Source: an uncultured Oribacterium sp. (lineage in GTDB: Bacteria; Bacillota; Clostridia; Lachnospirales; Lachnospiraceae). From it: a stretch of DNA of 14,210 nt. Of this stretch, positions 1,388-14,210 are shown one piece after another; the first letter of the stretch is position 1; every line of letters begins with the position of its first letter. Where the stretch lies: assembly GCA_934279105.1 (NCBI GenBank), contig CAKQWR010000036.1:1-14210 (forward strand). The letters are read 5' to 3'. Made by a program: the position numbers and the translations under genes. The notes beneath the pieces are model-generated. The model ran no database searches, was not told the origin of the DNA, and saw nothing but the letters and a program-made list of their open reading frames with translations.

Positions 1388-2854
1388 ATGGCCAAGATTA
1401 TCGGTGATGGTATTACGTTTGATGATGTACTGCTGGTTCCGCAGTATTCTGAGGTTGTTCCGAACGAAATCGACGTTTCCACCTATCTTACGAAGTCAAT
1501 TCATCTTAACATTCCGTTCCTTTCTGCAGGTATGGATACTGTTACAGAGCATCAGATGGCGATTGCCATGGCACGTTGCGGTGGTATCGGTATCATCCAT
1601 AAGAATATGTCGATCGAGCAGCAGGCTGAAGAAGTTGACATGGTTAAGCGTTCCGAGAACGGCGTTATCACCGATCCGTTCTTCTTGAGTGCAGAGCACA
1701 CCCTGAAGGATGCAAATGATCTCATGGCGAAGTTCCGTATCTCCGGCGTGCCGATCACCGAGGGCAGAAAGCTCATCGGTATCATCACAAACCGTGACCT
1801 CGTTTTCGAGGAGGATTACACGAAGAAGATCAAGGAGTGCATGACGAGTGAGAACCTCGTAACGGCGAAGGAAGGCACCACTCTCGAAGAGGCGAAGCAG
1901 ATCCTGGCACGTGCGAAGGTAGAGAAGCTTCCGATCATTGATGATGATGGAAACCTGAAGGGACTCATCACCATCAAGGATATCGAGAAGCAGATGAAGT
2001 ATCCGAACGCTGCGAAGGACTCTCAGGGCAGACTTCTCTGCGGTGCTGCACTCGGTATTACAGCAAACGTTGTCGATCGTGCACAGGAACTGATCAACGC
2101 ACATGTTGACGTCGTCGTTCTCGACTCTGCACATGGCCATAGTGCAAACGTTCTGAAGTGCGTAAGCATGCTGAAGGATAAGTTCCCGGATCTCCAGATC
2201 ATCGCTGGTAACGTAGCAACCGGTGAAGCAACCGAGGCTCTCATCAAGGCCGGCGCGGATTGCGTAAAGATCGGTATCGGACCTGGTTCCATCTGTACCA
2301 CTCGTGTCGTAGCTGGTATCGGTGTTCCACAGGTATCCGCTGTTATGAATGCGTTTGAGGTAGCAGATAAGTATGGTATCCCAATCATCGCCGATGGTGG
2401 TATTCAGTACTCCGGTGATGTTGTGAAGGCCATCGCTGCCGGTGGCAGCACAGTTATGATGGGTTCTGTATTCGCGGGCTGCGACGAGGCACCGGGCGAG
2501 TTCGAGCTCTACCAGGGCCGTAAGTACAAGGTATACCGTGGCATGGGATCTCTCGGCGCGATGAAGCAGAAGAATGGTTCTGCAGATCGTTATTTCCAGT
2601 CCAATGCGAAGAAGCTCGTACCAGAGGGTGTCGAGGGTCGTGTTGCATATAAGGGCCGCGTAGAAGATACCATCTTCCAGTTTGTCGGTGGCCTCCGTGC
2701 AGGTATGGGCTACTGTGGTGCGAAGGATATCACAACGCTTCAGCATAACAGCCAGTTCGTGAAGATCTCCAGCGCTTCTCTCAAGGAGTCACACCCGCAT
2801 GATATTCATATCACGAAGGAAGCACCGAACTACTCCGTAGAGAACAACGACTAA
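1388..2854 (+). CDS. guaB: Inosine-5'-monophosphate dehydrogenase
   Basis: IMP dehydrogenase oxidises IMP to XMP with NAD+, the first step from IMP to GMP, in the cytosol as a tetramer or octamer. The protein is 488 residues, the normal bacterial length. The ATG at 1388 follows AAGGAGA (1374-1380) by 7 bases; an upstream in-frame TTG at 1355 has no such site and lies beside the predicted transcription start. The N-terminus [20 protein letters not shown] is typical. Two CBS domains occupy about residues 93-205. The catalytic loop GPGSICTTR places the nucleophile at Cys303. GMGSLGAM and the flap [14 protein letters not shown] follow at the usual distance. The gene has its own promoter and is followed by a hairpin repeat and then a terminator. 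The stop codon's last base is also the first base of that repeat. guaA is not adjacent. Confidence 0.98.
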
Positions 2855-2929
2855 GAGTTTGTATCAGCAGACTCTGGAACGACCTCCGGCAGAGCTGTGC
2901 TCTGTTCCCCGTAGGGGCTAAAGTAGGGC
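2854..2929 (+). repeat. Multi-hairpin intergenic repeat, copy 1 (no H4 module)
   Basis: Copy 1 of an element found three times in full here. H1 pairs AGAGTTTGT (2854-2862) with GCAGACTCT (2867-2875) around ATCA. H2 pairs GGCAGAGC (2888-2895) with GCTCTGTT (2899-2906). H3 is CCCC-GTA-GGGG (2907-2917). Compared with the copies at 9685 and 14104, several stem bases differ, but each change leaves a G-U or Watson-Crick pair. After H3 it reads GCTAAAGTAGGGC, which equals the two ends of the H4 module of the 14104 copy joined with the middle missing. The element is on the sense strand of guaB, directly after its stop. Confidence 0.85.
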
Positions 2930-2956
2930 TGGTTCCGTTATGTTACAAAGTACTTG

Positions 2957-2987
2957 AAAGGTCAGGCTTTTATGGCCTGGCCTTTTT
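2957..2987 (+). terminator. Intrinsic terminator after guaB
   Basis: AAAGGTCAGGC (2957-2967) pairs with GCCTGGCCTTT (2975-2985) with one U-G pair, followed by a T-rich run. It lies only 24 bases before the nadE start, so it also separates nadE from guaB. An in-frame TTG upstream of this hairpin (2954) would put the terminator inside a longer nadE and is therefore not taken as the start. Confidence 0.8.
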
Positions 2988-3010
2988 CCTTTATTCCGAA
3001 AGAGTGTACT

Positions 3011-5038
3011 ATGATTGAAGGATTCCTGCGTGTGGCTGTGTCCACACCGAAAATCAAAGTTGCTGATGTGCGATATAATACAGATGCTGTTCTTCGCGAT
3101 ATCGAAGAGGCAGATCATCAGGGTGTCGCACTGCTTGTGTTTCCCGAGCTGGTGCTGACCGCATATACCTGTGGAGATTTATTCCATCAGACCATTCTGA
3201 TCGAGAAAGCCGCTGCAGCGCTGGATGAAATTGCAGAGGCGACGCGTCGTGTGAACCTGGTGGCGGTCGTCGGCGTTCCGTATATGGTTGACCACAAGCT
3301 CTATAACTGTGCGGCGGTGCTGCACGCGGGATACATCATTGCGCTGATTCCGAAGAAAAATCTGCCGAACTACAGTGAGTTTTATGAGCGCCGCTGGTTT
3401 ACGCCGGGACAGGCACATGCAGTGAAGCTCGCACACCGCTCTGTGACCACAGGGGAGACGTACGAGATTCCGTTTGGTATGAATATTCTCGTAGAAGCAG
3501 CGGATCGTCCGGACTTCCGCCTCGCATGTGAGATCTGCGAGGATGTCTGGGTACCGAATCCACCATCTACCCGTCATGCGCTTGTTGGTGCTACTGTAAT
3601 TGCAAATACCTCTGCTTCCGATGAAACGGTTGGGAAAGACAGTTATCGTCGTGAGCTCATCTGCTCGACCAGTGCACGTCTCGTTTCGGTATACTGTTAT
3701 GCCAATGCTGGTGAGGGGGAGTCTACCACGGACCTCGTTTTCGGTGGACAGGATATCATCGCTGAAAATGGCTCCATCGTAAAGGAAGGCAAGCGTTTTG
3801 ATACCGGACTCTACATTGCGGACGTCGATCTCCAGCGCATCATGCAGGAGCGCGCACGTATGACGACCTTTCCGGACATCGATGATGAGTTGCGGGCTGC
3901 GTATACGGTGGTCAAGTTCAGCTTCGCACAGTCGGCGAGATGCGGTGAAGAAACCGGGACATTGGCAGAACAGCTGACGGCAGATGCGGCAGATCTTCGT
4001 CGTTACATTGATCCGAAGCCTTTCGTACCTGGAAATGTAGCGGAGAGAAATGCGCGCTGTGATGAAATCTTTACGATTCAGGCACTCGGACTGAAGAAGC
4101 GTCTGGAGCATACCGGATGCCAGGCAGCCGTGATCGGTATCTCCGGAGGGTTGGATTCGACGCTCGCGCTTCTGGTAACCGCGCGTGCCTTCGATATGCT
4201 GGGCATCCCGCGCGAGAAGATCATTTCCGTAACCATGCCGGCCTTCGGTACGACGGACCGTACCTATAACAACGCCGTTACGCTGACGAATCGTCTACAT
4301 GCGACACTTCGCGAAATCAACATCAAGGCGTCTGTGCTGCAGCATTTCGAGGATATCGGGCATGATCCGGAGGACCATTCCGTGGTCTATGAAAATGCGC
4401 AGGCACGTGAACGAACGCAGATTCTCATGGACATCGCGAATCAGACGAACGGGCTTGTCATCGGTACAGGTGATCTCAGTGAGCTCGCGCTTGGCTGGGC
4501 GACCTACAATGCCGATCATATGTCCATGTACGGGGTCAATGCAGGCGTTCCGAAAACACTGGTGCGTTACCTGGTAAAATATGTCGCCGATACATCGGAG
4601 GATGCAGATCTTGCGCACTGTCTTAATGATATCTTCGACACGCCGGTCAGTCCGGAGCTCCTTCCGCCGACCGGGGACGGTCAGATCAGCCAGAAGACGG
4701 AGAATCTCGTAGGCCCGTATGAGCTTCATGACTTCTTTCTGTATCAGATCCTGCGTTATGGTTTCCGTCCGCGGAAGGTCTATGCGCTGGCGCTTCACGC
4801 CTTCACGAAGGAGAATCAGGAGATGGCCGGAATTACGCATGCGGACATCTATGACGAAGCGACGATTCTGAAGTGGCTCCGCAAGTTCTACTGGCGCTTC
4901 TTCTCACAGCAGTTTAAGCGCTCCTGTCTTCCGGATGGCCCGAAGGTCGGTTCGATTGCGGTTTCTCCACGTGGCGACCTCCGTATGCCGAGTGATGCAG
5001 CCGCACAGCTCTGGATCGACGAACTGAAGGAACTTTAA
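3011..5038 (+). CDS. nadE: Glutamine-dependent NAD+ synthetase (two-domain)
   Basis: It makes NAD+ from deamido-NAD+, ATP and glutamine, the last step of NAD synthesis, in the cytosol. The 675-residue protein has the two-domain form. The N-terminal nitrilase-fold glutaminase (about 5-285) shows the Glu-Lys-Cys triad: Glu46 in VFPELVLTAYTCGDL, Lys115 in IPKKNLPNYSEFYERRWF and Cys176 in CEICEDVWVP. The C-terminal synthetase domain carries the ATP pyrophosphatase P-loop SGGLDS at 378-383, then GTGDLSELALGW and HMSMYGVNAGVPKTLVRYL. The ATG at 3011 gives MIEGFLRVAV, the expected start of this family. Its ribosome binding site (AAAGAG) is weaker than most here. I see no clear promoter in the 24 bases between the guaB terminator and the start. 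A strong terminator follows. With intact glutaminase residues it should use glutamine rather than ammonia alone. Confidence 0.97.
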   Translation: MIEGFLRVAVSTPKIKVADVRYNTDAVLRDIEEADHQGVALLVFPELVLTAYTCGDLFHQTILIEKAAAALDEIAEATRRVNLVAVVGVPYMVDHKLYNCAAVLHAGYIIALIPKKNLPNYSEFYERRWFTPGQAHAVKLAHRSVTTGETYEIPFGMNILVEAADRPDFRLACEICEDVWVPNPPSTRHALVGATVIANTSASDETVGKDSYRRELICSTSARLVSVYCYANAGEGESTTDLVFGGQDIIAENGSIVKEGKRFDTGLYIADVDLQRIMQERARMTTFPDIDDELRAAYTVVKFSFAQSARCGEETGTLAEQLTADAADLRRYIDPKPFVPGNVAERNARCDEIFTIQALGLKKRLEHTGCQAAVIGISGGLDSTLALLVTARAFDMLGIPREKIISVTMPAFGTTDRTYNNAVTLTNRLHATLREINIKASVLQHFEDIGHDPEDHSVVYENAQARERTQILMDIANQTNGLVIGTGDLSELALGWATYNADHMSMYGVNAGVPKTLVRYLVKYVADTSEDADLAHCLNDIFDTPVSPELLPPTGDGQISQKTENLVGPYELHDFFLYQILRYGFRPRKVYALALHAFTKENQEMAGITHADIYDEATILKWLRKFYWRFFSQQFKRSCLPDGPKVGSIAVSPRGDLRMPSDAAAQLWIDELKEL

Positions 5039-5057
5039 ATTCAGAGATGAAGATGGT

Positions 5058-5112
5058 GTGACCATCGTGCAACCGGAGGAACACCGGGAAACACGGTGGT
5101 CACGATTTTTTT
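5058..5112 (+). terminator. Intrinsic terminator after nadE
   Basis: GTGACCATCGTG (5058-5069) pairs over 12 bp, with one U-G pair, with CACGGTGGTCAC (5092-5103). The loop contains a further small CCGG/CCGG stem. Seven T follow at 5106-5112. This is one of the strongest terminators in the window. Confidence 0.9.
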
Positions 5113-5138
5113 GATGAAGAAAAGGTGTGTACTATAAC
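5111..5138 (+). promoter_or_regulatory. Candidate promoter for the RNA methyltransferase gene
   Basis: TTGATG (5111-5116) and TATAAC (5133-5138) are 16 bases apart; the -35 box begins within the T run of the nadE terminator. It would start a leader of about 120 bases before the methyltransferase gene. That leader (to 5263) is AT-rich and holds no other gene or clear structure that I can see. A second, weaker possibility is TTGAAA at 5182. Confidence 0.45.
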
Positions 5139-5263
5139 CCGGCGTTTTCACTGAGGTATTTCAATTGTTTTAACGAATGACTTGAAATCCATGGATAAAC
5201 GAGCACTATTAATAATGCACACCCTTCGATTTTTTAGCGTGTTCATGTATTTTGGAGGAACTT

Positions 5264-6091
5264 TTGGAACGAATTACATCTACTGGAAATAAATTAATCA
5301 GAGAGGTGCGAGACCTGGAGAAAAAGGCGCGGACACGCCGTGAAAGCGGTCTGTTCATCGCAGAGGGCGAGCGTTTATGCAGCGAGATTCCGGTATCGTA
5401 TATCGAACGGCTCTTTGTGGCCGAAGACTACAGCGGTCGTATGCCGGCATTTCGGAAGGATGCATCCGGTCTGAACGAAGGCCACTCAGAAGCCGGGATG
5501 AAGGCAATCAACACAGCTGCTCCGAAAATTTTTGAAGTACCGCGTGAACTGATGGAGCATATGTCCGATACGAAAAACAGTCAGGGTATCCTGGCAGTGG
5601 TGCGGCAGAAAGAATACACTACGCTTAAGGGCGATTTTTTTCTGATCCTCGACACCCTGCAGGACCCGGGAAACATGGGTACCATTTTCCGAACCGCAGA
5701 GGCGGCCGGCGTGGATGGTATCCTGATGAATCGTGACTGTGTGGACGTGTACTCCCCGAAGGTCGTTCGTGCGACGATGGGGGCGATGTTCCGTATGCCA
5801 TTTATGGTCACGGATGACCTGCCGGCAGAAATCAAACGAATGAAATCGCAGGGCGTACAGATATATGCTGCGCATCTCAAGGGAACAAAAAACCACTGGG
5901 AGTTTGATTACCATCAGCCGACCGCCTTTATGATCGGTAACGAGGGCAACGGCCTTCAGGATGAAATCGCTGCACTGGCAGACACGTATCTCCGTATCCC
6001 GATGATGGGACAGACGGAGTCGCTCAACGCAGGCGTCGCCGCATCCGTGCTGATGTACGAAACGTTACGTCAAAGAGTGTGTCATGCTTAG
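5264..6091 (+). CDS. TrmH/SpoU-family RNA 2'-O-methyltransferase
   Basis: It should transfer a methyl group from S-adenosylmethionine to a ribose 2'-OH in rRNA or tRNA. The start is taken as TTG 5264, because GGAGG (5254-5258) lies 5 bases before it; another TTG at 5252 overlaps that site. This gives 275 residues. Residues 8-40 (NKLIREVRDLEKKARTRRES) match the N-terminal substrate-binding region of the RlmB-like group. The three SpoU motifs of the trefoil-knot SPOUT fold are all visible: LDTLQDPGNMGTIFRTAEAAG (about 129-149), FMIGNEGNGL (222-231) and RIPMMGQTESLNAGVAASVL (244-263). The general type resembles Bacillus YsgA and RlmB, but the exact target nucleotide cannot be read from sequence. 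In many Firmicutes a YsgA-like gene precedes pheST; here it precedes argF instead. Confidence 0.93.
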   Translation: MERITSTGNKLIREVRDLEKKARTRRESGLFIAEGERLCSEIPVSYIERLFVAEDYSGRMPAFRKDASGLNEGHSEAGMKAINTAAPKIFEVPRELMEHMSDTKNSQGILAVVRQKEYTTLKGDFFLILDTLQDPGNMGTIFRTAEAAGVDGILMNRDCVDVYSPKVVRATMGAMFRMPFMVTDDLPAEIKRMKSQGVQIYAAHLKGTKNHWEFDYHQPTAFMIGNEGNGLQDEIAALADTYLRIPMMGQTESLNAGVAASVLMYETLRQRVCHA

Positions 6092-6104
6092 TTAAACGCC
6101 TGCT

Positions 6105-6233
6105 TTGAAAGGAGAAACATATCGGAGCTATGAGTCTTCAGCTCCGACGATAAAGAAAAGATGGCATCCTATGCGACGTGGCATGAGGCTATGGCGCGGT
6201 ATGCCTGATTATTAAGAAAGGGAGAGGAATCAG
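6105..6233 (+). promoter_or_regulatory. argF leader with hairpin and arginine-rich short ORF
   Basis: The 142 bases between the methyltransferase and argF hold several suggestive items. TTGAAA (6105-6110) and TATGAG (6129-6134) form a weak possible promoter with an 18-base spacer. TCGGAGCT (6122-6129) pairs perfectly with AGCTCCGA (6142-6149). A 14-codon ORF at 6171-6215 reads MRRGMRLWRGMPDY, with four arginines, and ends 18 bases before the argF ATG. A shorter ORF at 6130 reads MSLQLRR. None has an ideal ribosome binding site, and no terminator or known arginine-responsive element is recognised, so regulation is a hypothesis. Confidence 0.3.
6171..6215 (+). other. Possible arginine-rich leader peptide ORF (14 codons)
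   Basis: ATG at 6171 runs for 14 codons to TAA at 6213-6215: MRRGMRLWRGMPDY. Arginine codons are CGA, CGT, AGG and CGC, two of them right after the start. Its only upstream purine stretch is AAAGAAAAGA, 9 bases from the ATG. The position just before an arginine-biosynthesis gene is what makes it worth recording; the same composition could arise by chance. Confidence 0.25.
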
Positions 6234-7259
6234 ATGATTGATTTAACTGGACGCGACTTTTTGAAATTACTAGATTATACACCGGAGGAAATCAATTATC
6301 TCCTCGATGTTGCAGCTCGTCTGAAGGCGGAGAAGAAGGCCGGTGCGCAGCCGGGACAGAGTCTCCATAAGACAAGTTTTGCGGGCAAAAACATTGCCCT
6401 TATTTTTGAAAAGAATTCGACGAGAACGCGGTGCTCTTTTGAGGTAGCAGCGGCGGATCTCGGGATGGGCTCGACTTACCTCGATCCGACCAGTTCGCAG
6501 ATTGGAAACAAGGAATCGATTGCAGATACGGCACGTGTATTGAGCCGTATGTATGATGGTATCGAGTACCGTGGCTTCGGTCAGGATATTGTGGAGGAGC
6601 TTGCGAAATATAGTGATGTTCCGGTATGGAACGGCCTCACAAACGAGTTCCATCCGACACAGATGCTCGCCGATATGCTGACGATTCGTGAGCATCGCGG
6701 TGACCTGAAGGGTCAGAAACTGGTGTATATGGGTGATGCGCGTTACAACATGGCGGATTCATACATGGTTGTCTGTGCGAAGCTCGGCATGCATTTCGTC
6801 GCTTGTGCGCCGAAGGATTACTGGCCGAATCAGGATCTGATTGCGACCTGTCAGGCGGTAGCTGCTGAGACGGGTGCGACACTCAGCTTTACCGAGAATG
6901 TAGCAGAGGCATGCAAGGATGCGGACGTGATCTGCACCGATGTGTGGGTATCGATGGGCGAACCGGATGCGGTATGGGAGAAGCGTATTCATGATCTGAA
7001 GCCATATCAGGTGAATGCGGATGCGTTCAGTTATGCGAAGGAGGATGCAATCTTCCTGCATTGCCTGCCGGCCTTCCATGACACAAACACGAAGATCGGT
7101 AAGAAAATCTACGAAAAGTATGGCCTCACCGAGATGGAAGTAAGCAATGAAATTTTCGAAGGCCCGCACAGCGTCGTCTTCGACGAAGCTGAGAACCGTA
7201 TGCACACCATCAAGGCGGTCGTATATACAACCCTTGGTGGAGTTTGCATCAGCAGATAA
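6234..7259 (+). CDS. argF: Ornithine carbamoyltransferase
   Basis: It joins ornithine and carbamoyl phosphate to give citrulline in arginine biosynthesis (the same reaction runs in reverse in the arginine deiminase pathway). It acts in the cytosol, usually as a trimer. The ATG at 6234 follows a GGGAGAGG purine run. The 341-residue protein has the carbamoyl-phosphate loop STRTR at 62-66, [23 protein letters not shown] and the ornithine-site motif HCLP at 276-279. The C-terminus is unusual. After [17 protein letters not shown], where family members normally stop, it adds VCISR, encoded by a sequence identical to the first hairpin of the window's intergenic repeat. No other arg genes or arcA/arcC are adjacent, so a biosynthetic versus catabolic role is not settled by context. 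The following gene starts 12 bases on and is probably co-transcribed. Confidence 0.97.
7239..7256 (+). repeat. Fragment of the multi-hairpin repeat (H1 only), inside the argF 3' end
   Basis: The 16 bases GGAGTTTGCATCAGCA match the H1 5' arm, loop and first part of the 3' arm of the copy at 9685. The next two bases (GA) match the copy at 2854. The rest of the element is missing: the sequence then runs into the argF stop at 7257-7259. It encodes the last residues of argF. Confidence 0.7.
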
Positions 7260-7271
7260 TATAGGAGTTTT

Positions 7272-7574
7272 ATGTCAAGAATGAATACAGTCAGTCGACA
7301 GCAGTCCCGTGCACTTGACATGGTGCACATCATCATCGGCATCGTGATCCTCGTAATGGCCGTTCTGGCCTTTCTTGATCCGACCGAGAATATGGTGCTG
7401 TTTCCGCTGATTTTTTTTGCTGCAGCCATTCTGAAGGTCGTGGGTGGAATCCACACGATCCTGAATGCGAAGCGTGCGCATGAACGTACCAGTACACAGG
7501 GCGTAATTCAGCTGACGCTGGGGATTTTAATTGCTATACTCGGTGTAGTATCTGCAATCAGTGTCTGGAATTAA
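7272..7574 (+). CDS. Small three-helix membrane protein, function unknown
   Basis: A 100-residue hydrophobic protein. The ATG at 7272 follows AGGAG (7263-7267) by 4 bases. After a short polar start it has three predicted membrane helices, at about residues 17-37, 42-62 and 77-98, with a charged loop NAKRAHERTSTQG between the second and third. The layout and glycine-rich helices recall the DUF308/HdeD-like group of small integral membrane proteins, but I do not recognise a specific family and no function can be assigned. It begins 12 bases after argF and is likely on the same transcript. Its 3' part contains the probable promoter of rpoD. Confidence 0.8.
   Translation: MSRMNTVSRQQSRALDMVHIIIGIVILVMAVLAFLDPTENMVLFPLIFFAAAILKVVGGIHTILNAKRAHERTSTQGVIQLTLGILIAILGVVSAISVWN
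7512..7540 (+). promoter_or_regulatory. Candidate rpoD promoter inside the upstream gene
   Basis: CTGACG (7512-7517) and TATACT (7535-7540) are 17 bases apart. A TG one base before the -10 box gives an extended -10. Transcription would start near 7547, still inside the small membrane protein gene, leaving a leader of about 90 bases for rpoD. The leader contains a 7-bp hairpin, GATGGTG/CGCCATC (7592-7610), without a T run. Confidence 0.55.
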
Positions 7575-7636
7575 ATATGGTAACTCGAGGATGGTGCACT
7601 GCGCCATCGTCACGGAATGAATAACAGGAGGGTAGT

Positions 7637-8884
7637 ATGGCTAGAAAGAAAGCATCTGAAGAAAAAGCCACCAAAAAAAATAAGGTGAGTGAAAAGCCGG
7701 AAATCAGCAGAGAGGAACTCGTGAAGCGTATCGAGGCACTGTGCAAGAAGGCGAAGGATAACAAAAACACGATCAGTCAGGCCGATATCAATGATTCATT
7801 CCGTGATTTTGCAATCACAGAAGACCAGATGGACAGCATCAATCGTCTGATCGAGAACCGAAACATCGATATCGAACCGATCGAAGATGAGGCGGAGCTC
7901 GAAGATCTGGAGAATGGTGAACTTGCGGAACTCGATGATGACGATGTCCCGGAAGTCGAGGGTGTCGATGATGAGATCGGACCAAGCGAAGAGGAGTACA
8001 AGGAGGCGGAAGCAGAAAATGTAGATCTGGATGCAGTCGACCTTCTGGAAGGCATCGGTACCGAAGATCCGGTCCGCATGTATCTGAAGGAAATCGGTAC
8101 GGTTCCACTGCTGTCTGCGGAAGAAGAGTATCGTCTTGCGGTTCGTAAGTCCCAGGGAGATGAGGTTGCAAAACAGCGTCTCATCGAGGCGAACCTTCGT
8201 CTCGTTGTTTCGATTGCGAAGCGTTATACCGGTCGAGGCATGAGCTTCCTCGATCTCGTACAGGAGGGAAACCTCGGCCTGATCAAGGGTGTTGAGAAGT
8301 TTGATCCGGAGAAGGGCTTCAAGCTGTCTACCTATGCAACATGGTGGATTCGCCAGTCCGTGACTCGTGCACTCGCAGATCAGGCTAGAACCATCCGTGT
8401 CCCTGTGCATATGGTTGAGACCATCAACAAGATGTCGAAAATGCAGCGAAAGCTGACACTGGAACTGGGCTATGAGCCTTCCGTTAAGGAACTGGCGGAG
8501 CACCTCGACATGTCAGAGGAAAAGGTACAGGAAATTATGCAGATCGCACGTGAGCCGGCATCGCTGGAAACACCAATCGGTGAAGAGGACGATTCCAACC
8601 TGGGCGATTTCGTTGCGGACGCGAATGTCGTTTCTCCGGAAGGCAACGTTGAGTCCGTCATGCTGCGCGAGCACATCGATACCCTGCTTGGAGATCTGAA
8701 GGAGCGTGAACGTCAGGTCATCGTTCTTCGTTTCGGTCTCGAGGATGGACACCCGAGAACGCTCGAGGAAGTCGGCAAGGAATTTAATGTCACACGTGAG
8801 CGTATTCGTCAGATCGAAGCGAAGGCACTCCGTAAGCTTCGAAATCCGGTGCGCTCGAAGAGAATCCGGGATTTCCTTCAGTAA
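7637..8884 (+). CDS. rpoD: RNA polymerase primary sigma factor (RpoD/SigA)
   Basis: The housekeeping sigma factor directs RNA polymerase to -10/-35 promoters such as those noted in this window. The ATG at 7637 follows AGGAGGG. The protein is 415 residues. A basic N-terminus and short region 1.1 are followed by a very acidic linker at about 80-128. Region 1.2 starts at [13 protein letters not shown] (142). Region 2 (183-253) contains [20 protein letters not shown] and the -10-recognising [20 protein letters not shown]. Region 3 begins [15 protein letters not shown]. Region 4 (353-412) contains [20 protein letters not shown], the -35 helix-turn-helix. Region 1.1 is small, as in other Firmicutes. 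The usual partner dnaG is not upstream here, so the common dnaG-rpoD operon is broken or rearranged. Confidence 0.97.
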
Positions 8885-8974
8885 TAGAGGAGCGAGCCTC
8901 TATGATGGAAGTAGCTCGACCGTGGTCAGGCGAGCCTGGAGTATAGGATACATCAATAGAGGATATTCATAAAC

Positions 8975-9676
8975 GTGAATCAGGAAACAGAAGCACCGGT
9001 GTATATTAAGCCGGAACCCAATACGAAAAATTACCAGCGCCTGATGGAGCAGGAAATCAGTCAATGGCAGGAGAAAAAGCCGGGGCGTCGTCCGCGGCTT
9101 CTTCTGCATAGCTGCTGTGCGCCGTGCTCCAGTGCCGTGCTGGATGAACTGTGTGCATATTTCGATATTACGCTGTTTTATTACAATCCGAATATTTCGA
9201 CCGAGGCAGAATTTACGCATCGCGTTGATGAACTGAAGCGCTTCTGCCACGAAATGGGCATCGATGTGGAGCGGCAGGATAGTGAAGGCCATGTGCTTGG
9301 TGCCGTCGATATCGTAGTGCCGCCATATGATCATCATGAGTTTCTCGCCATCGCGCGTGGCCATGAACGGGATCCGGAACGCGGTGAGCGCTGCCATCGC
9401 TGTTATCGACAGCGACTCGAGCGTACAGCGGAATATATGGAAGAGATACAGACGTATGATTATTTCTGTACGACCCTTACGCTTTCACCCCTGAAGTCTT
9501 CGGAGGTGCTCAATGTCATCGGCGAGGAAATCGGGAAGGCGCATGGACTTTCGTTTCTGCCATCCGATTTCAAAAAGCGCGGTGGCTACCAGAAGTCCAT
9601 TGAGCTCTCGAAGAAATATGACTTATACCGCCAGAACTTCTGCGGCTGTGAGTATTCTCGCGCATCCCGAATATAA
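8975..9676 (+). CDS. queH: Epoxyqueuosine reductase QueH
   Basis: QueH carries out the last step of queuosine tRNA modification, reducing epoxyqueuosine to queuosine. It is the non-homologous replacement for the cobalamin-dependent QueG. The 233-residue protein matches the former DUF208 family: HSCCAPCSS gives the adjacent cysteines Cys47-Cys48 plus Cys51, GERCHRCYRQRL gives Cys140 and Cys143, and FCTTLTLSPLKS, LPSDFKKRGGYQKSIELSKKY and a terminal CGC follow. By homology the CC and CxxC cysteines hold the 4Fe-4S cluster. The start is GTG 8975, with AGAGGA at 8958-8963; this spacing is somewhat long. Other queuosine genes are not adjacent. The 90 bases after rpoD hold a perfect TAGAGG/CCTCTA hairpin at 8885-8902 but no clear promoter, so read-through from rpoD is likely. 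Confidence 0.94.
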   Translation: MNQETEAPVYIKPEPNTKNYQRLMEQEISQWQEKKPGRRPRLLLHSCCAPCSSAVLDELCAYFDITLFYYNPNISTEAEFTHRVDELKRFCHEMGIDVERQDSEGHVLGAVDIVVPPYDHHEFLAIARGHERDPERGERCHRCYRQRLERTAEYMEEIQTYDYFCTTLTLSPLKSSEVLNVIGEEIGKAHGLSFLPSDFKKRGGYQKSIELSKKYDLYRQNFCGCEYSRASRI

Positions 9677-9684
9677 GCTGTGTA

Positions 9685-9818
9685 GGAGTTTGCATCAGCA
9701 AACTCCGGAACGATATCCAGCAGAGCTAAGCTCTGCTCCCGAAGGGCTGAACGCGAGCCATACCAGCTCGAGTTCAGGGCTGGGCTAACGTCGGGCAACC
9801 ACGGACCGACTTTAGGGC
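9685..9818 (+). repeat. Multi-hairpin intergenic repeat, copy 2 (two H4 modules)
   Basis: This copy starts 8 bases after the queH stop. H1 is a perfect 9-bp stem, GGAGTTTGC/GCAAACTCC with loop ATCA (9685-9706). H2 pairs AGCAGAGC with GCTCTGCT (9719-9737). H3 is CCC-GAA-GGG (9738-9746). It then has two H4-type hairpins in tandem. H4A pairs CTGAACGCGAGC (9747-9758) with GCTCGAGTTCAG (9766-9777), with one mismatch. H4B pairs CTAACGTCGG (9785-9794) with CCGACTTTAG (9806-9815), with one mismatch. The two H4 modules differ in stem sequence but keep pairing. The element ends just before the HPr promoter. Confidence 0.85.
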
Positions 9819-9823
9819 GGCAG

Positions 9824-9852
9824 TTGACTTCAAACTTTTGAAGACTTATTAT
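9824..9852 (+). promoter_or_regulatory. HPr gene promoter (TTGACT, 17 bp, TATTAT)
   Basis: TTGACT (9824-9829) and TATTAT (9847-9852) are exactly 17 bases apart, the best promoter match in the window. Transcription would begin near 9859, so the HPr start must be downstream at 9886 rather than at an in-frame TTG at 9838 inside the promoter. Confidence 0.7.
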
Positions 9853-9885
9853 TTAATCAATAAAAACGATGAAAAGGAGTGTGGT

Positions 9886-10182
9886 ATGGTTACAGGTGAA
9901 GTAGACGTTATCAACGAGTCTGGTCTTCATTTAAGACCGGCAGGTGTTCTGACACAGACTTGTATCAAGTTTAAGAGTAATATCTATCTCTATAACGGAG
10001 AGCGAAAAATCGTCGCGAAGTCTGTTCTGAATGTGATGGCTGCCGGCGTAAAGCAGGGCGCTCATCTTCGTGTCGAGTGCGACGGACCGGATGAAGAAGA
10101 AGCGCTTAAGACCGTGATCGAGGCCATCGCTACCGGACTCGGTGAGGGTACAAAGTACAGCAGTAAAGATCGTTTATTTTAA
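9886..10182 (+). CDS. ptsH: HPr-family phosphocarrier protein
   Basis: HPr carries phosphate from enzyme I to sugar-specific EIIA proteins of the phosphotransferase system. In Firmicutes it also serves carbon catabolite control when Ser46 is phosphorylated by HPr kinase. The 98-residue protein starts at ATG 9886, 6 bases after AAGGAG (9874-9879). His15 lies in GLHLRPA with Arg17, and Ser46 lies in AKSVLNVMAAGVKQG; both phosphorylation sites are present. Two differences from the textbook pattern are leucine rather than alanine after His15, and LNVMAAG where many HPr have MGVMSLG. There is also a C-terminal extension of roughly ten residues beyond the usual ~87. Crh proteins lack His15, so this is not Crh. 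Enzyme I is not adjacent. A strong terminator follows directly. Confidence 0.92.
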   Translation: MVTGEVDVINESGLHLRPAGVLTQTCIKFKSNIYLYNGERKIVAKSVLNVMAAGVKQGAHLRVECDGPDEEEALKTVIEAIATGLGEGTKYSSKDRLF

Positions 10183-10183
10183 G

Positions 10184-10221
10184 AACAAGAAAAACTCGGC
10201 TTTCGCCGAGTTTTTCTTGTT
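10184..10221. terminator. Bidirectional terminator between convergent HPr and Mrp genes
   Basis: AACAAGAAAAACTCGGC (10184-10200) pairs perfectly over 17 bp with GCCGAGTTTTTCTTGTT (10205-10221) around the loop TTTC. The A-rich and T-rich flanks make it work in both directions. It starts one base after the HPr stop and ends 14 bases before the stop of the minus-strand gene. Confidence 0.95.
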
Positions 10222-10235
10222 ATATAAGCTTTTAT

Positions 10236-11102
10236 TTACTTGTTGAAATCGATGACAGCCTGAACAGCATCCTTGATTTCCGGAAGATCGATGCCCTCGA
10301 CAGCGCCTGCGTCCATATAAGCGGCGTTCTTCGGATCCATCGGAAGCTTCGCAAGAACCTTGAGGCCGTGCTGTGCTGCGACTTCATCCACATGACTCTC
10401 GCCGAAGACCTGGATCTTCTCGTCACAGTGCGGGCAAACGAGATAGGACATATTTTCTACGAGACCGATGACCGGAACATTCATCTTATCCGCCATGTTT
10501 ACGGCCTTCGTAACGATCATGGAAACGAGATCCTGCGGAGAGGTAACGATGACGATACCATCGATCGGGAGGGACTGGAAAACGGTAAGCGGAACATCGC
10601 CGGTTCCTGGTGGCATGTCGACGAACATGTAGTCTACATCCTTCCACTGAACCTCAGACCAGAACTGCTTCACCGCCTGTGCGATGAGGGAACCACGCCA
10701 GATGATCGGGTCGGTTTCGTTCTCAAGCAGAAGATTGGAGGAGATGATCTCGATACCATCGGCACTTCTGTCCGGGATCATAAGCTTGCCATCCGGTGTA
10801 ACACCGACACCATCGTTGGAAAGGCCGAAGGCCTTCGGGATGGACGGACCGGTGATATCTGCATCGAGAATTGCAGTCTTGAAGCCGGCCTTATGCGTGC
10901 CACAAGCGAGAAGAGAAGTGATGGTAGACTTACCGACACCACCCTTACCGGAAACGACACCGATGACCTTTTTTACGCTGCAGCCATCAGCAAGCTTCGC
11001 ACGGAAATCTTCCGGATTTGCATGACGAGATGCGCAGTCGGAACCGCAGGAACCGCAGTTGCCGTTGCAGCTGGAAGGATTCTGATTTTCTAATTCTGCC
11101 AT
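10236..11102 (-). CDS. mrp: Mrp/NBP35-type Fe-S cluster carrier ATPase
   Basis: A cytosolic P-loop ATPase of the Mrp/NBP35/ApbC family, which binds and delivers Fe-S clusters to target proteins. It is 288 residues; the ATG follows AAAGGAG by 9 bases on the minus strand. The N-terminus has a cysteine cluster (Cys12, 16, 19, 23) like that of NBP35-type proteins. The deviant Walker A motif SGKGGVGKST is at 51-60, followed by DADITGPSIPKAFGL and VDMPPGTGDVPLTVFQSLP. The family-specific CPHC (Cys223, Cys226), which bridges a cluster at the dimer interface, lies in YLVCPHCDEKIQVFG. It has no upstream MIP18-like domain. It is a single-gene unit, as far as can be seen, between the bidirectional terminator and the LysR terminator. 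leuC nearby encodes a 4Fe-4S enzyme, but a functional link is speculation. Confidence 0.95.
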   Translation of the reverse strand: MAELENQNPSSCNGNCGSCGSDCASRHANPEDFRAKLADGCSVKKVIGVVSGKGGVGKSTITSLLACGTHKAGFKTAILDADITGPSIPKAFGLSNDGVGVTPDGKLMIPDRSADGIEIISSNLLLENETDPIIWRGSLIAQAVKQFWSEVQWKDVDYMFVDMPPGTGDVPLTVFQSLPIDGIVIVTSPQDLVSMIVTKAVNMADKMNVPVIGLVENMSYLVCPHCDEKIQVFGESHVDEVAAQHGLKVLAKLPMDPKNAAYMDAGAVEGIDLPEIKDAVQAVIDFNK

Positions 11103-11254
11103 ATAGATAAACTCCTTTCGGGATTTGAAAATACGTTCGAGTGTAATTGTTCATGGATTTCCATGAGCGCGCTGTCTGCAAAAGCAGAGAAGCGTTTACG
11201 AAGTCCGCGCCCGGGCGGCTTCATTGCACCCAACTTTACTACCATACCACAGAA
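11103..11254. other. Upstream region of the Mrp gene
   Basis: About 150 bases between the Mrp start and the LysR terminator. It contains the ribosome binding site CTCCTTT (plus-strand reading), a perfect inverted repeat TCATGGA-TT-TCCATGA near 11151-11166, a CTGC-AAAA-GCAG hairpin just after it, and a GC-rich CCGCGCCCGGGCGG stretch. The Mrp promoter should be here, but I see no convincing -35/-10 pair and no gene. Confidence 0.4.
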
Positions 11255-11285
11255 AAAGGCCTCCGTCCATCAGACGAAGGCCTTT
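11255..11285 (-). terminator. Intrinsic terminator after the LysR gene
   Basis: AAAGGCCTCCGTC (11255-11267) and GACGAAGGCCTTT (11273-11285) form a 13-bp stem with one mismatch and a 5-base loop. Read on the minus strand it ends in a run of five T, so it terminates the LysR transcript 75 bases after its stop. Confidence 0.85.
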
Positions 11286-11360
11286 GATTGTTTTTAACTA
11301 TATTCAAAAAGCTGAAATTCTGACACAACCCTCTCGAGCACTTGACTATGTGCTGCGAAA

Positions 11361-12245
11361 TTAATCCAGGATGCTGAGGAAGGCGTCGAGGGACTTTCCG
11401 GTGTTGCCTGCGTTGTAAACATAGCCGACACTGCGGGATGGTACCGGGAACTGGGTCGGGATTTCAACCAGTGTACCCTCATCGAGCTCCTTCTGAACCA
11501 GCTCACGAATGACACAGCCGATGCCGATGCCGATCTTGGCGAAGTCCACGAGAAGATCCATCGTGGTGACTTCGAGAATCTGTGCCGGCTCGATGCCCAT
11601 GGTCTTAAAATAATCGTCGATGTGTCGACGGGTCATGTTGTTCTGATCGAGCAGCATGATGTTTCCTTCCTGGAACGGATCGCAGTCTTCACCATACATC
11701 GCCTTGAGATTTTCAACGTACTGAGGAGTAGCGACGAAAACATCATGAATCTGCTTCGGATGAACGAAACGAAGCTCCGGACGACGTGTACGAGGCTCAG
11801 CGGTGAGGCCGATATCAAGCTTCTTCTGCTCGAGAAGCTGCAGCGTCTGTGCCGTCGACTGTGTGATGATCGATACACGAATATTCGGATACTTCTGCAT
11901 GAAAGTCTGGAGATATGGCAGAAGGATATAGCGGCAGAGCGTCGTGGATACACCAATCTGGATGTGACCGATGTTGAAATCCTTCATGCGCTTTAATTCG
12001 GTCTCCGCATTGTTGATGTTATCAAACGCATCCTTAATATAGCGGTAGAGAACCGTTCCTTCTTCTGTCAGCGTAACACCACGCGAGTTACGGTGAAAAA
12101 GCTTGGTGTCGAGTCCATCTTCCAGCTTTACGATGGACTTGGAAATAGCGGGCTGCGAAATATAGAGTTTCTTTGCCGCCTTTGAAATGTTACCGCATGT
12201 GGCAACCTCGTAGAAAATTTTGTAACCTGACAGATTCTGATCCAT
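11361..12245 (-). CDS. LysR-type transcriptional regulator, likely regulator of leuC
   Basis: A 294-residue LysR-family DNA-binding regulator. The ATG at 12245 follows AGGGGG on the minus strand. The N-terminal winged helix-turn-helix is clear: YKIFYEVATCGNISKAAKKL, then YISQPAISKSIVKLED, then LFHRNSRGVTLTEEG (residues 8-63). A linker helix and the periplasmic-binding-protein-like effector domain (about 93-294) follow, starting IGHIQIGVSTTLCRYILLPY. The ligand cannot be read from sequence. It is transcribed away from leuC across a shared intergenic region, the classic arrangement in which a LysR protein controls the divergent gene and itself. By that context, leucine or a pathway intermediate such as isopropylmalate is a plausible effector; this is inference. 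Confidence 0.93.
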   Translation of the reverse strand: MDQNLSGYKIFYEVATCGNISKAAKKLYISQPAISKSIVKLEDGLDTKLFHRNSRGVTLTEEGTVLYRYIKDAFDNINNAETELKRMKDFNIGHIQIGVSTTLCRYILLPYLQTFMQKYPNIRVSIITQSTAQTLQLLEQKKLDIGLTAEPRTRRPELRFVHPKQIHDVFVATPQYVENLKAMYGEDCDPFQEGNIMLLDQNNMTRRHIDDYFKTMGIEPAQILEVTTMDLLVDFAKIGIGIGCVIRELVQKELDEGTLVEIPTQFPVPSRSVGYVYNAGNTGKSLDAFLSILD

Positions 12246-12381
12246 GATTTCCCCCTAATATACAGCTGTTTCGAAATGAACGTAACTGAATGTGTACATG
12301 CCATCCGGCTGAGTGAATGCTTCCGATGGCGTTCCTGTCGCCTGTTCAACAGTTTAAAGAGATGAATTGCTCGGCATATTT
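12246..12381 (-). other. LysR gene 5' leader with a hairpin
   Basis: If the LysR promoter proposed at 12382-12411 is right, the mRNA has a leader of about 130 bases. It contains one good hairpin, GCCATCCGG (12300-12308) against CCGATGGC (12323-12330) with one bulged base. I see no gene and no known riboswitch. Confidence 0.35.
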
Positions 12382-12411
12382 AATATAACATAATGTTGAA
12401 CTATAACACAA
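12382..12411 (-). promoter_or_regulatory. Possible LysR gene promoter overlapping the operator array
   Basis: On the minus strand TTGTGT (12411-12406) and TATATT (12387-12382) are 18 bases apart. The -10 box matches 5 of 6 positions but the -35 only 3. It overlaps the ATAAC repeats, so binding of a regulator here could repress the LysR gene. In AT-rich DNA such a match is weak evidence. Confidence 0.3.
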
Positions 12412-12439
12412 GATTATTTATAACATGTTTTGGCATAAC
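12384..12439. promoter_or_regulatory. Candidate LysR operator array between lysR-type gene and leuC
   Basis: TATAACA occurs at 12384, 12402 and 12419, with a fourth ATAAC at 12435, giving spacings of 18, 17 and 15 or 16 bases. Overlapping them are two dyads, AACAT-A-ATGTT (12387-12397) and AACATGTT (12422-12429), and an inverted repeat TATAA-N11-TTATA (12402-12422). Relative to the leuC start proposed near 12468 they span about -84 to -30, the usual zone for LysR-type regulator binding. The motifs are AT-rich, so chance cannot be excluded. Confidence 0.4.
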
Positions 12440-12452
12440 CTTTAGCGTTTTT

Positions 12453-12461
12453 TGGTACAAT
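12453..12461 (+). promoter_or_regulatory. Candidate leuC promoter, extended -10
   Basis: TGGTACAAT at 12453-12461 is an extended -10 box (TG, one base, TACAAT). There is no good -35 at 17 bases; TTGGCA at 12430-12435 is 20 bases away. A poor -35 is common at promoters that need an activator, which fits a LysR-type regulator bound just upstream. Confidence 0.4.
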
Positions 12462-12838
12462 TTGTAAAAAAATCGGTATACAGGAATAGGTACGTGCATC
12501 CGTCTCGCATGCCGATGCAGACATCGGACGGTGTACGTTTCGGCGCTGGATGATAGAAGCGAGAGGGAATGTGCATCGCTGGCAGAAGCATTGGCGAGAT
12601 AGAACCATGTGCTGAGATAATCGTTAATTATGATAATCATCAAAAACATATATTATATTTATAATACACGAGATGATATATTGTTACGAGATCATAAGCA
12701 TGCGTATGTTCTGTGGGTCTGTATTTTGTGAGAAATGGTGATTTTCGGGGCATGGCTTCGTGGAAATAACGGTATGAATAGACAGGGCATGCGAGGAAGC
12801 AGGCGCATGTATGAATATTGCGAATATAGGAGTGTACT
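12462..12838 (+). other. Long leuC 5' leader without a recognised gene
   Basis: About 370 bases between the proposed promoter and leuC. It holds a CCGATG-CAGA-CATCGG hairpin (12512-12527), an AT-rich block at 12615-12685 with the repeat GATAATC twice and a perfect TATTATA-TT-TATAATA dyad (12651-12666), and a near-palindrome CATAAGCATGCGTATG (12693-12708). A 31-codon ORF at 12569-12664 ends with two TTA leucine codons but has poor ribosome-site spacing. I see no T-box sequence, no terminator hairpin and no known riboswitch. A second promoter (TTGTTA 12681, TATGTT 12705) is possible but weak. Confidence 0.35.
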
Positions 12839-14104
12839 ATGGGAATGACGATGAGCCAGAAGATTCTGGCAAAGCATGCAGGACTTGAATCTGTGACCGC
12901 TGGTCAGCTGATCATGGCGGAACTGGATCTGGTTCATGGAAATGATATTACTTCGCCTGTAGCGATTCGTGAGATGAAGAAGCTCGATCAGAAAGAGGTC
13001 TTCGATAAGGAGAAGGTTGTGCTGGTCATGGATCACTTCGTTCCGAATAAGGATATTACGAGTGCGAAGTGCACACAGATGTGCCGGAATTTCGCACATG
13101 AGCAGGGACTTAAGAATTACTTCGATGTCGGAACCATGGGCATCGAGCATGCGCTGATCCCGGAGCAGGGACTGATCGTAGCCGGTGAGCTGAGCGTCGG
13201 TGCCGATTCCCATACCTGTACCTATGGCGCACTGGGCGCATTTTCGACCGGTATCGGTTCGACCGATATGGCAGCGGCGATGGCAACCGGAAAGCTCTGG
13301 TTTAAGGTGCCGACGGCTATCAAGGTGAATCTGGTCGGGAAGAAGCAGAAGTGGGTGTCCGGTAAGGATGTCATCCTTCATCTAATCGGAGAAATCGGTG
13401 TGGATGGTGCACGCTACCAGTCCATCGAATTTACCGGTCCGGGTGTGGCAGAGCTCAGCATGGATGACCGTTTCACCATCTGCAACATGGCGATTGAAGC
13501 CGGTGGTAAGAATGGTATTTTCCCGGTTGATGAAAAGACCATCGAATACATGGAGGCGCATTCGAAGAAGCCGTACACAGTGTACGAGGCAGATGAAGAT
13601 GCAGAGTATACACGCGAAATCACCATGGATCTTTCTACACTGAAGTCAACGATCTCATTTCCACATCTTCCGGAAAATACACATGAGCTTGGAAGCTTCG
13701 AGGATATCACGATCGATCAGTGTGTCATCGGCTCCTGCACAAATGGACGTATACAGGATATGCGTGAGGCCGCAGAAATTCTGCGTGGTCGAAAGGTGGC
13801 ACCGGATGTGCGCTGTATCGTGATTCCTGGCACGCAGGAAATCTATATGCAGATGCTGAAAGAGGGTCTCGTGATGGTATTTATCGAGGCAGGTGCAGTG
13901 GTATCGACCCCGACCTGCGGACCATGTCTCGGCGGCTATATGGGCATTCTGGCACCGCATGAGCGCTGCGTTTCGACCACAAACCGTAATTTCGTCGGTC
14001 GTATGGGTGACACCACCTCCGAAATCTACCTGGCATCACCGGCTGTCGCTGCTGCCTCCGCTGTCACCGGCAAGATTTCCGGACCAGAAGAATTAGGAAT
14101 GTAG
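12839..14104 (+). CDS. leuC: 3-isopropylmalate dehydratase, large subunit
   Basis: With the small subunit LeuD it isomerises 2-isopropylmalate to 3-isopropylmalate in leucine biosynthesis. It is an aconitase-family enzyme with a 4Fe-4S cluster in the cytosol. The ATG at 12839 follows ATAGGAG by 6 bases. The 421-residue length and sequence fit the shorter LeuC type shared by archaea, Thermotoga and Clostridia, which is close to homoaconitase large subunits. Cluster ligands are Cys300 in GSCTNGR and Cys360 and Cys363 in PTCGPCLGG. Active-site sequences [23 protein letters not shown] and [23 protein letters not shown] are all present. leuD, normally directly downstream, must lie beyond the window, and the hairpin repeat separates the two. 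The stop TAG overlaps the first base of that repeat. Homoaconitase cannot be fully excluded by sequence alone. Confidence 0.95.
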
Positions 14105-14201
14105 GAGTTTGCATCGGCAAACTCCGGAATGATATCCAGCAGAGCTAAGCTCTGCTCCCCGCAGGGGCTAAAGTCAGGCGCCCACAGCCTGACTTTAGGG
14201 C
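14104..14201 (+). repeat. Multi-hairpin intergenic repeat, copy 3 (one H4 module)
   Basis: H1 is a perfect 9-bp stem GGAGTTTGC/GCAAACTCC with loop ATCG (14104-14125). H2 pairs AGCAGAGC with GCTCTGCT (14138-14156). H3 is CCCC-GCA-GGGG (14157-14167). H4 is a perfect 12-bp stem, CTAAAGTCAGGC (14168-14179) with GCCTGACTTTAG (14187-14198). There is no T run after H4, so it is not a standard terminator. The last nine bases of the window, AATGTAGGA, repeat the bases at 14098-14106 where this copy begins. Confidence 0.9.
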
Positions 14202-14210
14202 AATGTAGGA

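Follow-up and report, generated by a model that had tools for sequence, protein, structure and literature searches.

What keeps a family of multi-hairpin repeats paired, and why do they stand directly behind gene stops? The question is raised by a stretch of 14,210 nucleotides (nt) from an uncultured Oribacterium sp. (contig CAKQWR010000036.1; hereafter the window), in which the initial annotation had described three full repeat copies and one fragment, with the full copies on the sense strand of guaB, queH and leuC, and had read their stem changes as a sign of selection on RNA. We confirmed the three copies in place and on that strand, and the fragment as a remnant, and the explanation changed. 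G-U pairs are hardly commoner than A-C mismatches in the stems (21:16), unlike RNase P RNA (156:6) and tRNA (18:0) from related genomes, and sites filled in the window are empty in a close relative and vice versa. The reading we lean toward is that the repeats are non-autonomous miniature mobile elements that resemble repetitive extragenic palindromes (REPs) or miniature inverted-repeat transposable elements (MITEs) in behavior and are kept as DNA palindromes.

Repeat unit and pairing of its stems

Aligned copies and 121 matches in 77 sources define a unit of roughly 100-135 nt, which reads: tag GAGYGNAG, hairpin H1 (for example, GGAGTTTGC-ATCA-GCAAACTCC), a conserved linker (GGAACGATATGG or close forms), hairpins H2, H3 and H4 and, often, a conserved tail. 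The tag offers stop codons in several frames, and the conserved letters in 112 distinct copies are AG at 2-3, G at 5 and AG at 7-8. H2, H3 and H4 stand edge to edge with hardly any linker and are closed by a covarying 2-bp helix, so that one strand can fold into a four-way junction. The tail of many relatives is GCGGAGCGC-AGCGGGTACGGCC, and sequences near GCGGAGCGC-AGCGGGTACGGCCAAGTA (at most four changes) were found at 30 distinct places in the fetched loci, a count in which at least one place, in locus L177, is chance. In the type seen in the window and its close relative G001, a second H4-like hairpin can replace the tail. Tandem units also occur. The annotators had recognized no known element here, and Rfam likewise gave no match at the gathering score, only sub-threshold ones with E of 0.5 or more.

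Two further features were seen in individual loci. By eye, a GAGCG(A)TA-like motif flanks H1 on both sides and recurs, less strictly, in the tail (e.g., L081, 2350-2573); it may be a repeated binding or cleavage signal. At the fabG site of genome G008 (L098, 2535-3232), four matches lie in a row, each of 170-174 nt where about 100 is usual, and H2 contains additional sequence.

The earlier observation that stems are kept paired was borne out: 93.4% of 3302 cells were paired in the model alignment, against 60.9% with shuffled partners and 26-51% in slid controls, and the covariation score was 0.676 against 0.174 after shuffling. The closing helix was paired in 92.1% of cells, in the forms GG/CC, CC/GG, GA/TC, AC/GT and GT/AC, with broken forms such as GC/AC as well.

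The kinds of mismatch speak to the level at which pairing is maintained. If a sense-strand RNA were under selection, G-U would be expected well above A-C, and this is not so. The 62 best matches comprise 59 distinct rows, with 1770 Watson-Crick, 21 G-U, 16 A-C and 12 other cells, plus 59 G-A cells from an internal loop that recurs in H4; all 114 distinct rows held 3019 Watson-Crick, 64 G-U, 50 A-C and 169 other cells. By comparison, RNase P RNA from 15 of the same genomes, with pairs taken from an RNAalifold structure, gave 1183 Watson-Crick, 156 G-U, 6 A-C and 14 other cells, and 15 distinct tRNAs from these genomes, located by a finder that itself favors standard pairs, gave 300 Watson-Crick, 18 G-U and no A-C (Fisher p on G-U:A-C, element versus control, 3e-9 and 5e-4, respectively). 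The G-U changes that the annotation had noted in H1 and H2 of the first window copy are real; its statement that every change there keeps a pair fails in the last hairpin, and its argument for RNA-level selection does not survive the controls.

Stems also change fast. At orthologous sites H2 and H4 showed 104 double Watson-Crick changes next to 3 single G-U and 4 single A-C changes, 23 other single changes and 20 other double changes, and fewer than half of the pairs were common in 169 of 488 helix comparisons; the H1 counts (157 double), which partly reflect length changes, were not relied on. What distinguishes the element is that G-U barely exceeds A-C and that its stems change so quickly, and this fits palindromes maintained in the DNA itself or through arm copying. 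A general caution follows: although strong covariation is usually held to prove an RNA, it can be strand-symmetric and hence a property of DNA, and the ratio of G-U to A-C is a cheap test between the two.

Distribution, filled and empty sites

A 28-nt pattern matched one contig among 84,980 species genomes, belonging to a Lachnospiraceae metagenome-assembled genome (JAUNWX010000011.1; G001). On two G001 contigs, counterparts of window genes follow one another as they do in the window (71-92% identity). G001 gave 8 BLAST matches at E < 0.01, and 11 of 61 genomes (G001 and 60 relatives) had BLAST matches. A covariance model built from 21 copies matched 18 of 245 genomes at E <= 0.01: G001-G012, G014-G017 and, weakly, G041 (32.8 bits) and G204 (25.6 bits), the last two dropped as chance since the tag is absent. 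The family is thus dispersed, as had been proposed, and occurs in 16 of the first 17 genomes around the Lachnospiraceae assembly and, these two discounted matches apart, in none of the other 228. Each carrier has at least 2-14 matches, lower bounds given that 16 candidates were scored per genome under stricter filters, and a 389-kb sample of G006 away from its matches held no copy. A literature search that left most subscription papers outside found no description of the family, which adds a REP-like family, with a fold more elaborate than that of REPs, to a bacterial group (one member named Lachnospiraceae) in which we found none described. A viral origin was considered and rejected: the H1 pattern matched two viral contigs, both times in one unrelated sequence and with no other part of the element present, two other patterns had no viral-contig match, and the third window copy had no match in phages or plasmids.

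Between the window and G001 the guaB site is filled in both, the leuC and queH sites in the window only, and the HPr/mrp and mrp/LysR sites in G001 only; leuC of G001 ends GGAATG-TAA-ACGAAAGG, with no copy. Since filled sites differ between such close relatives, the family moves or is lost quickly, and from these sequences it appears to be mobile, recently mobile, or else quickly lost. At mrp/LysR the G001 insert splits a hairpin that the window has intact and that folds strongly there (z about -5, both strands), with no evident target duplication at this, the only clean site; at leuC the window end cuts off the right border. The split hairpin looks like a terminator by eye, a candidate we rejected when a terminator scan made no call. 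Behind argS and fabG the 150 nt after the stop hold no element in G004, G009 and G013, and argS has remnants in G016 and G012. How the element spreads can be tested directly at such empty and filled sites. In the gap that separates the HPr gene from mrp, the window has a perfect 17-bp inverted repeat with a 4-nt loop (10184-10221), where G001 has an element and another hairpin.

The repeats in the window are as follows.

2854..2929, + strand: copy 1, after guaB, decayed (covariance model match 45.8 bits); H1 2854-2875, linker 2876-2887, H2 2888-2906, H3 2907-2917, H4 5' part only 2918-2929
7239..7254, + strand: remnant (part of H1) inside the last argF codons; G001 has a full copy at the same site
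9678..9684, + strand: 5' tag of copy 2, CTGTGTA (family consensus GAGYGNA)
9685..9818, + strand: copy 2, between queH and the HPr gene (85.4 bits); H1 9685-9706, linker 9707-9718, H2 9719-9737, H3 9738-9746, H4 9747-9777, closing 2-bp helix 9717-9718 with 9778-9779, second H4-type hairpin 9782-9818
14097..14201, + strand: copy 3, at the leuC stop (84.6 bits); tag 14097-14103, H1 14104-14125, linker 14126-14137, H2 14138-14156, H3 14157-14167, H4 14168-14198, end GGC 14199-14201
14202..14210, + strand: window end AATGTAGGA, resembling a unit start; possibly the start of a second tandem unit, or a left-flank repeat, cut by the window end

A repeat finder recovered a 78-nt family with three copies (at 2852, 9683 and 14102) and a 37-nt family that is the last hairpin (at 9744, 9782 and 14165); the remaining direct-repeat families shown in the window are at most 31 nt long. 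As first reported, H1 shares a base with the stop codon in two cases, guaB (TAA 2852-2854) and leuC (TAG 14102-14104), and at queH it begins 8 nt past the stop (TAA 9674-9676). Copy 2 terminates in two consecutive H4-type hairpins. Copies 2 and 3 fold markedly better than shuffled sequences (z -5.4 and -6.9; 0 of 200 shuffles as good). Copy 1 has lost the 3' arm of its last hairpin and folds no better than shuffles (z -1.2; 21 of 200 as good), and G001 carries a fuller copy at its guaB site. The full copy at argF in G001 lies 15 nt behind the stop, where the window has the remnant only; the window argF reading frame ends ...GGVCISR via this remnant (7239-7259), and the G001 argF ends ...GGK.

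Placement and competing explanations

We classed 86 clusters by the strands of their 5' and 3' neighbors, using our own codon-score gene caller trained on these loci, and obtained ++ 46, +? 11, -- 10, -+ 6, +- 5, ?+ 4, ?? 2 and -? 2; a length-only caller that it replaced had given ++ 33, -+ 18, +- 15, -- 8 and others 12. Once 12 rRNA/tRNA clusters and two doubtful matches were excluded and orthologous sites merged by eye, 43 distinct coding-context sites remained. In 21 of them H1 begins 0-12 nt behind a sense stop; 7 are otherwise sense, 9 antisense to both neighbors, 3 divergent and 3 undetermined. The 21 of 43 compare with 2.4% expected from the gaps in 389 kb of G006 (p 8e-23), and sense outnumbers antisense by 23:9 between tandem genes (p 0.02) and 28:9 overall (p 0.003), so that the family as a whole, like the window copies, is placed non-randomly, favoring gene 3' ends and the sense strand. 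The same site is retained in up to 8 genomes (fabG and a hicB-like gene). The tag provides the host-gene stop in several frames: fabG ends Ala-TAG in 8 of 8 genomes with the insert, and argS ends in TGA, TAG or TAA.

Replication strand was rejected as the cause of the sense bias, with the nine antisense copies split 5 with the leading strand (G006 at 971 kb and 2030 kb, G001 C11, and two in G007 C24) and 4 against it (G001 C23 and C53, G006 at 113 kb, and G008 C11), where the leading strand was judged by regional GC skew, which in G006 switches near 450 kb and 1.57 Mb.

Beside rRNA or tRNA genes (16 loci scanned), the element lies on the sense strand of the RNA in 6 of 6 loci, two of which (L136 and L137) are near-identical places of one genome. 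It precedes 16S rRNA by about 40 nt in G017, about 185 nt in G009 and about 145 and 265 nt on two contigs of G016, follows 23S rRNA by about 25 nt in G015, and lies against a tRNA 3' end in G007. Five G017 contigs (L127, L128, L129, L133 and L140) share one copy and the sequence upstream of it at or close to their ends; in L129 this lies immediately ahead of 16S rRNA, and several rRNA operons of this genome seem to carry the copy. Separately, in four genomes (L123, L116, L132 and L113) a palindrome like TGTAAGCGTTTACA is closely followed by a copy that lies between two divergent genes, which we take to encode a sugar-kinase-like and a LacI-like protein.

Under the mobile-element explanation, copies would spread as folded single-stranded DNA handled by some enzyme, and the palindromes would be kept perfect for this folded-DNA spread, by arm-to-arm copying in replication, or both. 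The element would survive where it does least harm: in the leaders and spacers of rRNA, in operon gaps, and at stop codons, which the tag itself can provide. Copies at such places would presumably be transcribed, with a possible side effect on mRNA decay; RNA effects on host genes are plausible, yet unneeded to explain the data.

Several points weigh against this explanation. The pair alignment was fitted to the model and is biased toward it, and two-sided change, found in all 32 pairs, is near the shuffled mean of 28.8, a measure that says little. The conserved G-A mismatches of H4 are strand-specific, so that one strand does matter. In the 15 genomes, RNase P also showed 1202 double Watson-Crick against 468 single changes (331 G-U, 70 A-C, 67 other), compared with 12 double and 20 single, with 1854 cells unchanged, in seven close genomes; because its doubles exceed singles at larger distance too, the argument from arm co-change is weaker than that from the G-U:A-C ratio. 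The sense bias could also stem from an RNA function, both borders are visible in only one pair of empty and filled sites, and copy numbers, which are lower bounds, look low for REPs. We found no mobilizing enzyme in a search that covered Y1 transposases, with other enzyme families not searched: PF01797 matched in 10 of 20 genomes searched, was not found in 8 of 16 carriers (G003, G004, G006, G008, G010, G011, G016 and G017; drafts may hide genes), and no element lay at the 30 Y1 loci examined among 56 matches (up to about 1.5 kb on each side).

A cis-acting RNA, which would shield the upstream message from 3'-5' exonucleases, set the ratio of operon gene products or block Rho, and act likewise in rRNA leaders, would account for the placement at stops and the sense bias, the six sense-strand loci beside rRNA and tRNA, the strong folding of copies 2 and 3 and the retention of one site in up to 8 genomes. 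We nonetheless consider it doubtful, given how little G-U exceeds A-C relative to RNase P and tRNA, the 9 distinct antisense sites, the sites at which only one of two close relatives has a copy, and the H2 and H4 stems that often differ greatly between orthologous copies.

Neutral palindromes with little function and no current mobility, in which template switching between arms during replication would mainly maintain pairing, are rather improbable. The few one-sided intermediates in H2 and H4 and the strand-symmetric mismatches agree with such an origin, and the accessible part of PMC8794818 proposes a template-switch mechanism for RNA genes; however, the closing helix covaries across about 60 nt and across genomes, which local arm copying would hardly produce, linker and tag are conserved, close relatives differ in presence and absence, and the pair asymmetry predicted in that part of the paper (more G-C and U-A) appears in H4 and is reversed in H2. 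Quite improbable, too, is a version of the mobile-element explanation in which the folded single strand (four-way junction plus hairpin) moves via an enzyme and inserts co-directionally into stretches of exposed sense strand; this exposure might occur behind the last ribosome or along untranslated rRNA and tRNA transcripts (R-loops), and transcription and translation would themselves choose the target.

Comparison with known systems

REPs, as described in the accessible parts of PMC3733652, PMC2817692 and PMC6006769, are high-copy palindromes of 20-40 bp found mostly in Proteobacteria, many tied to genes for REP-associated tyrosine transposases (RAYTs). Like the GTAG-REPs described there, our element is palindromic, dispersed and near the 3' end of the upstream gene, with a short hairpin beside a short tag, and its end can supply a stop codon, as REP termini often do. 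It differs in its length of about 100-135 nt, its four or more hairpins, its closed junction, its few copies and the lack of any RAYT link seen. Membership in a GTAG-REP/RAYT system is very unlikely: H1 is a short hairpin behind a tag that can supply the host stop, as those sources report for REPs, yet GTAG or GTGG, which should lie 0-2 nt 5' of the hairpin, occurs in the first 12 nt of 46 of 112 copies and is missing there from 66 (a few rows are cut at the 5' end), half of the carriers yielded no Y1 transposase, and the unit is longer than a REP.

MITEs carry terminal inverted repeats of 15-30 bp (accessible part of PMC3733652). By eye our element has none, its 5' GAGYG... and 3' ...GGCCAAGTA not being reverse complements. 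It resembles the transcribed MITEs named in the parts available of PMC3733652 and PMC2229807 (ERIC, NEMIS, RUP and EFAR) as a small non-coding repeat beside genes that folds when transcribed.

YPAL/RU-2 of Yersinia, which we compared by description only, from the accessible part of PMC2229807, is about 168 bp long and makes target duplications of 3-26 bp, whereas none is evident at the one clean site here. Both families lack a terminal TA motif, have internal inverted repeats, and show empty and filled sites. YPAL targets lie at or near dyad symmetry, and the single insertion at mrp/LysR here falls inside a strong hairpin; YPAL is expressed together with upstream genes. Although it fails the REP tests that we made, the family behaves most like REPs and YPAL.

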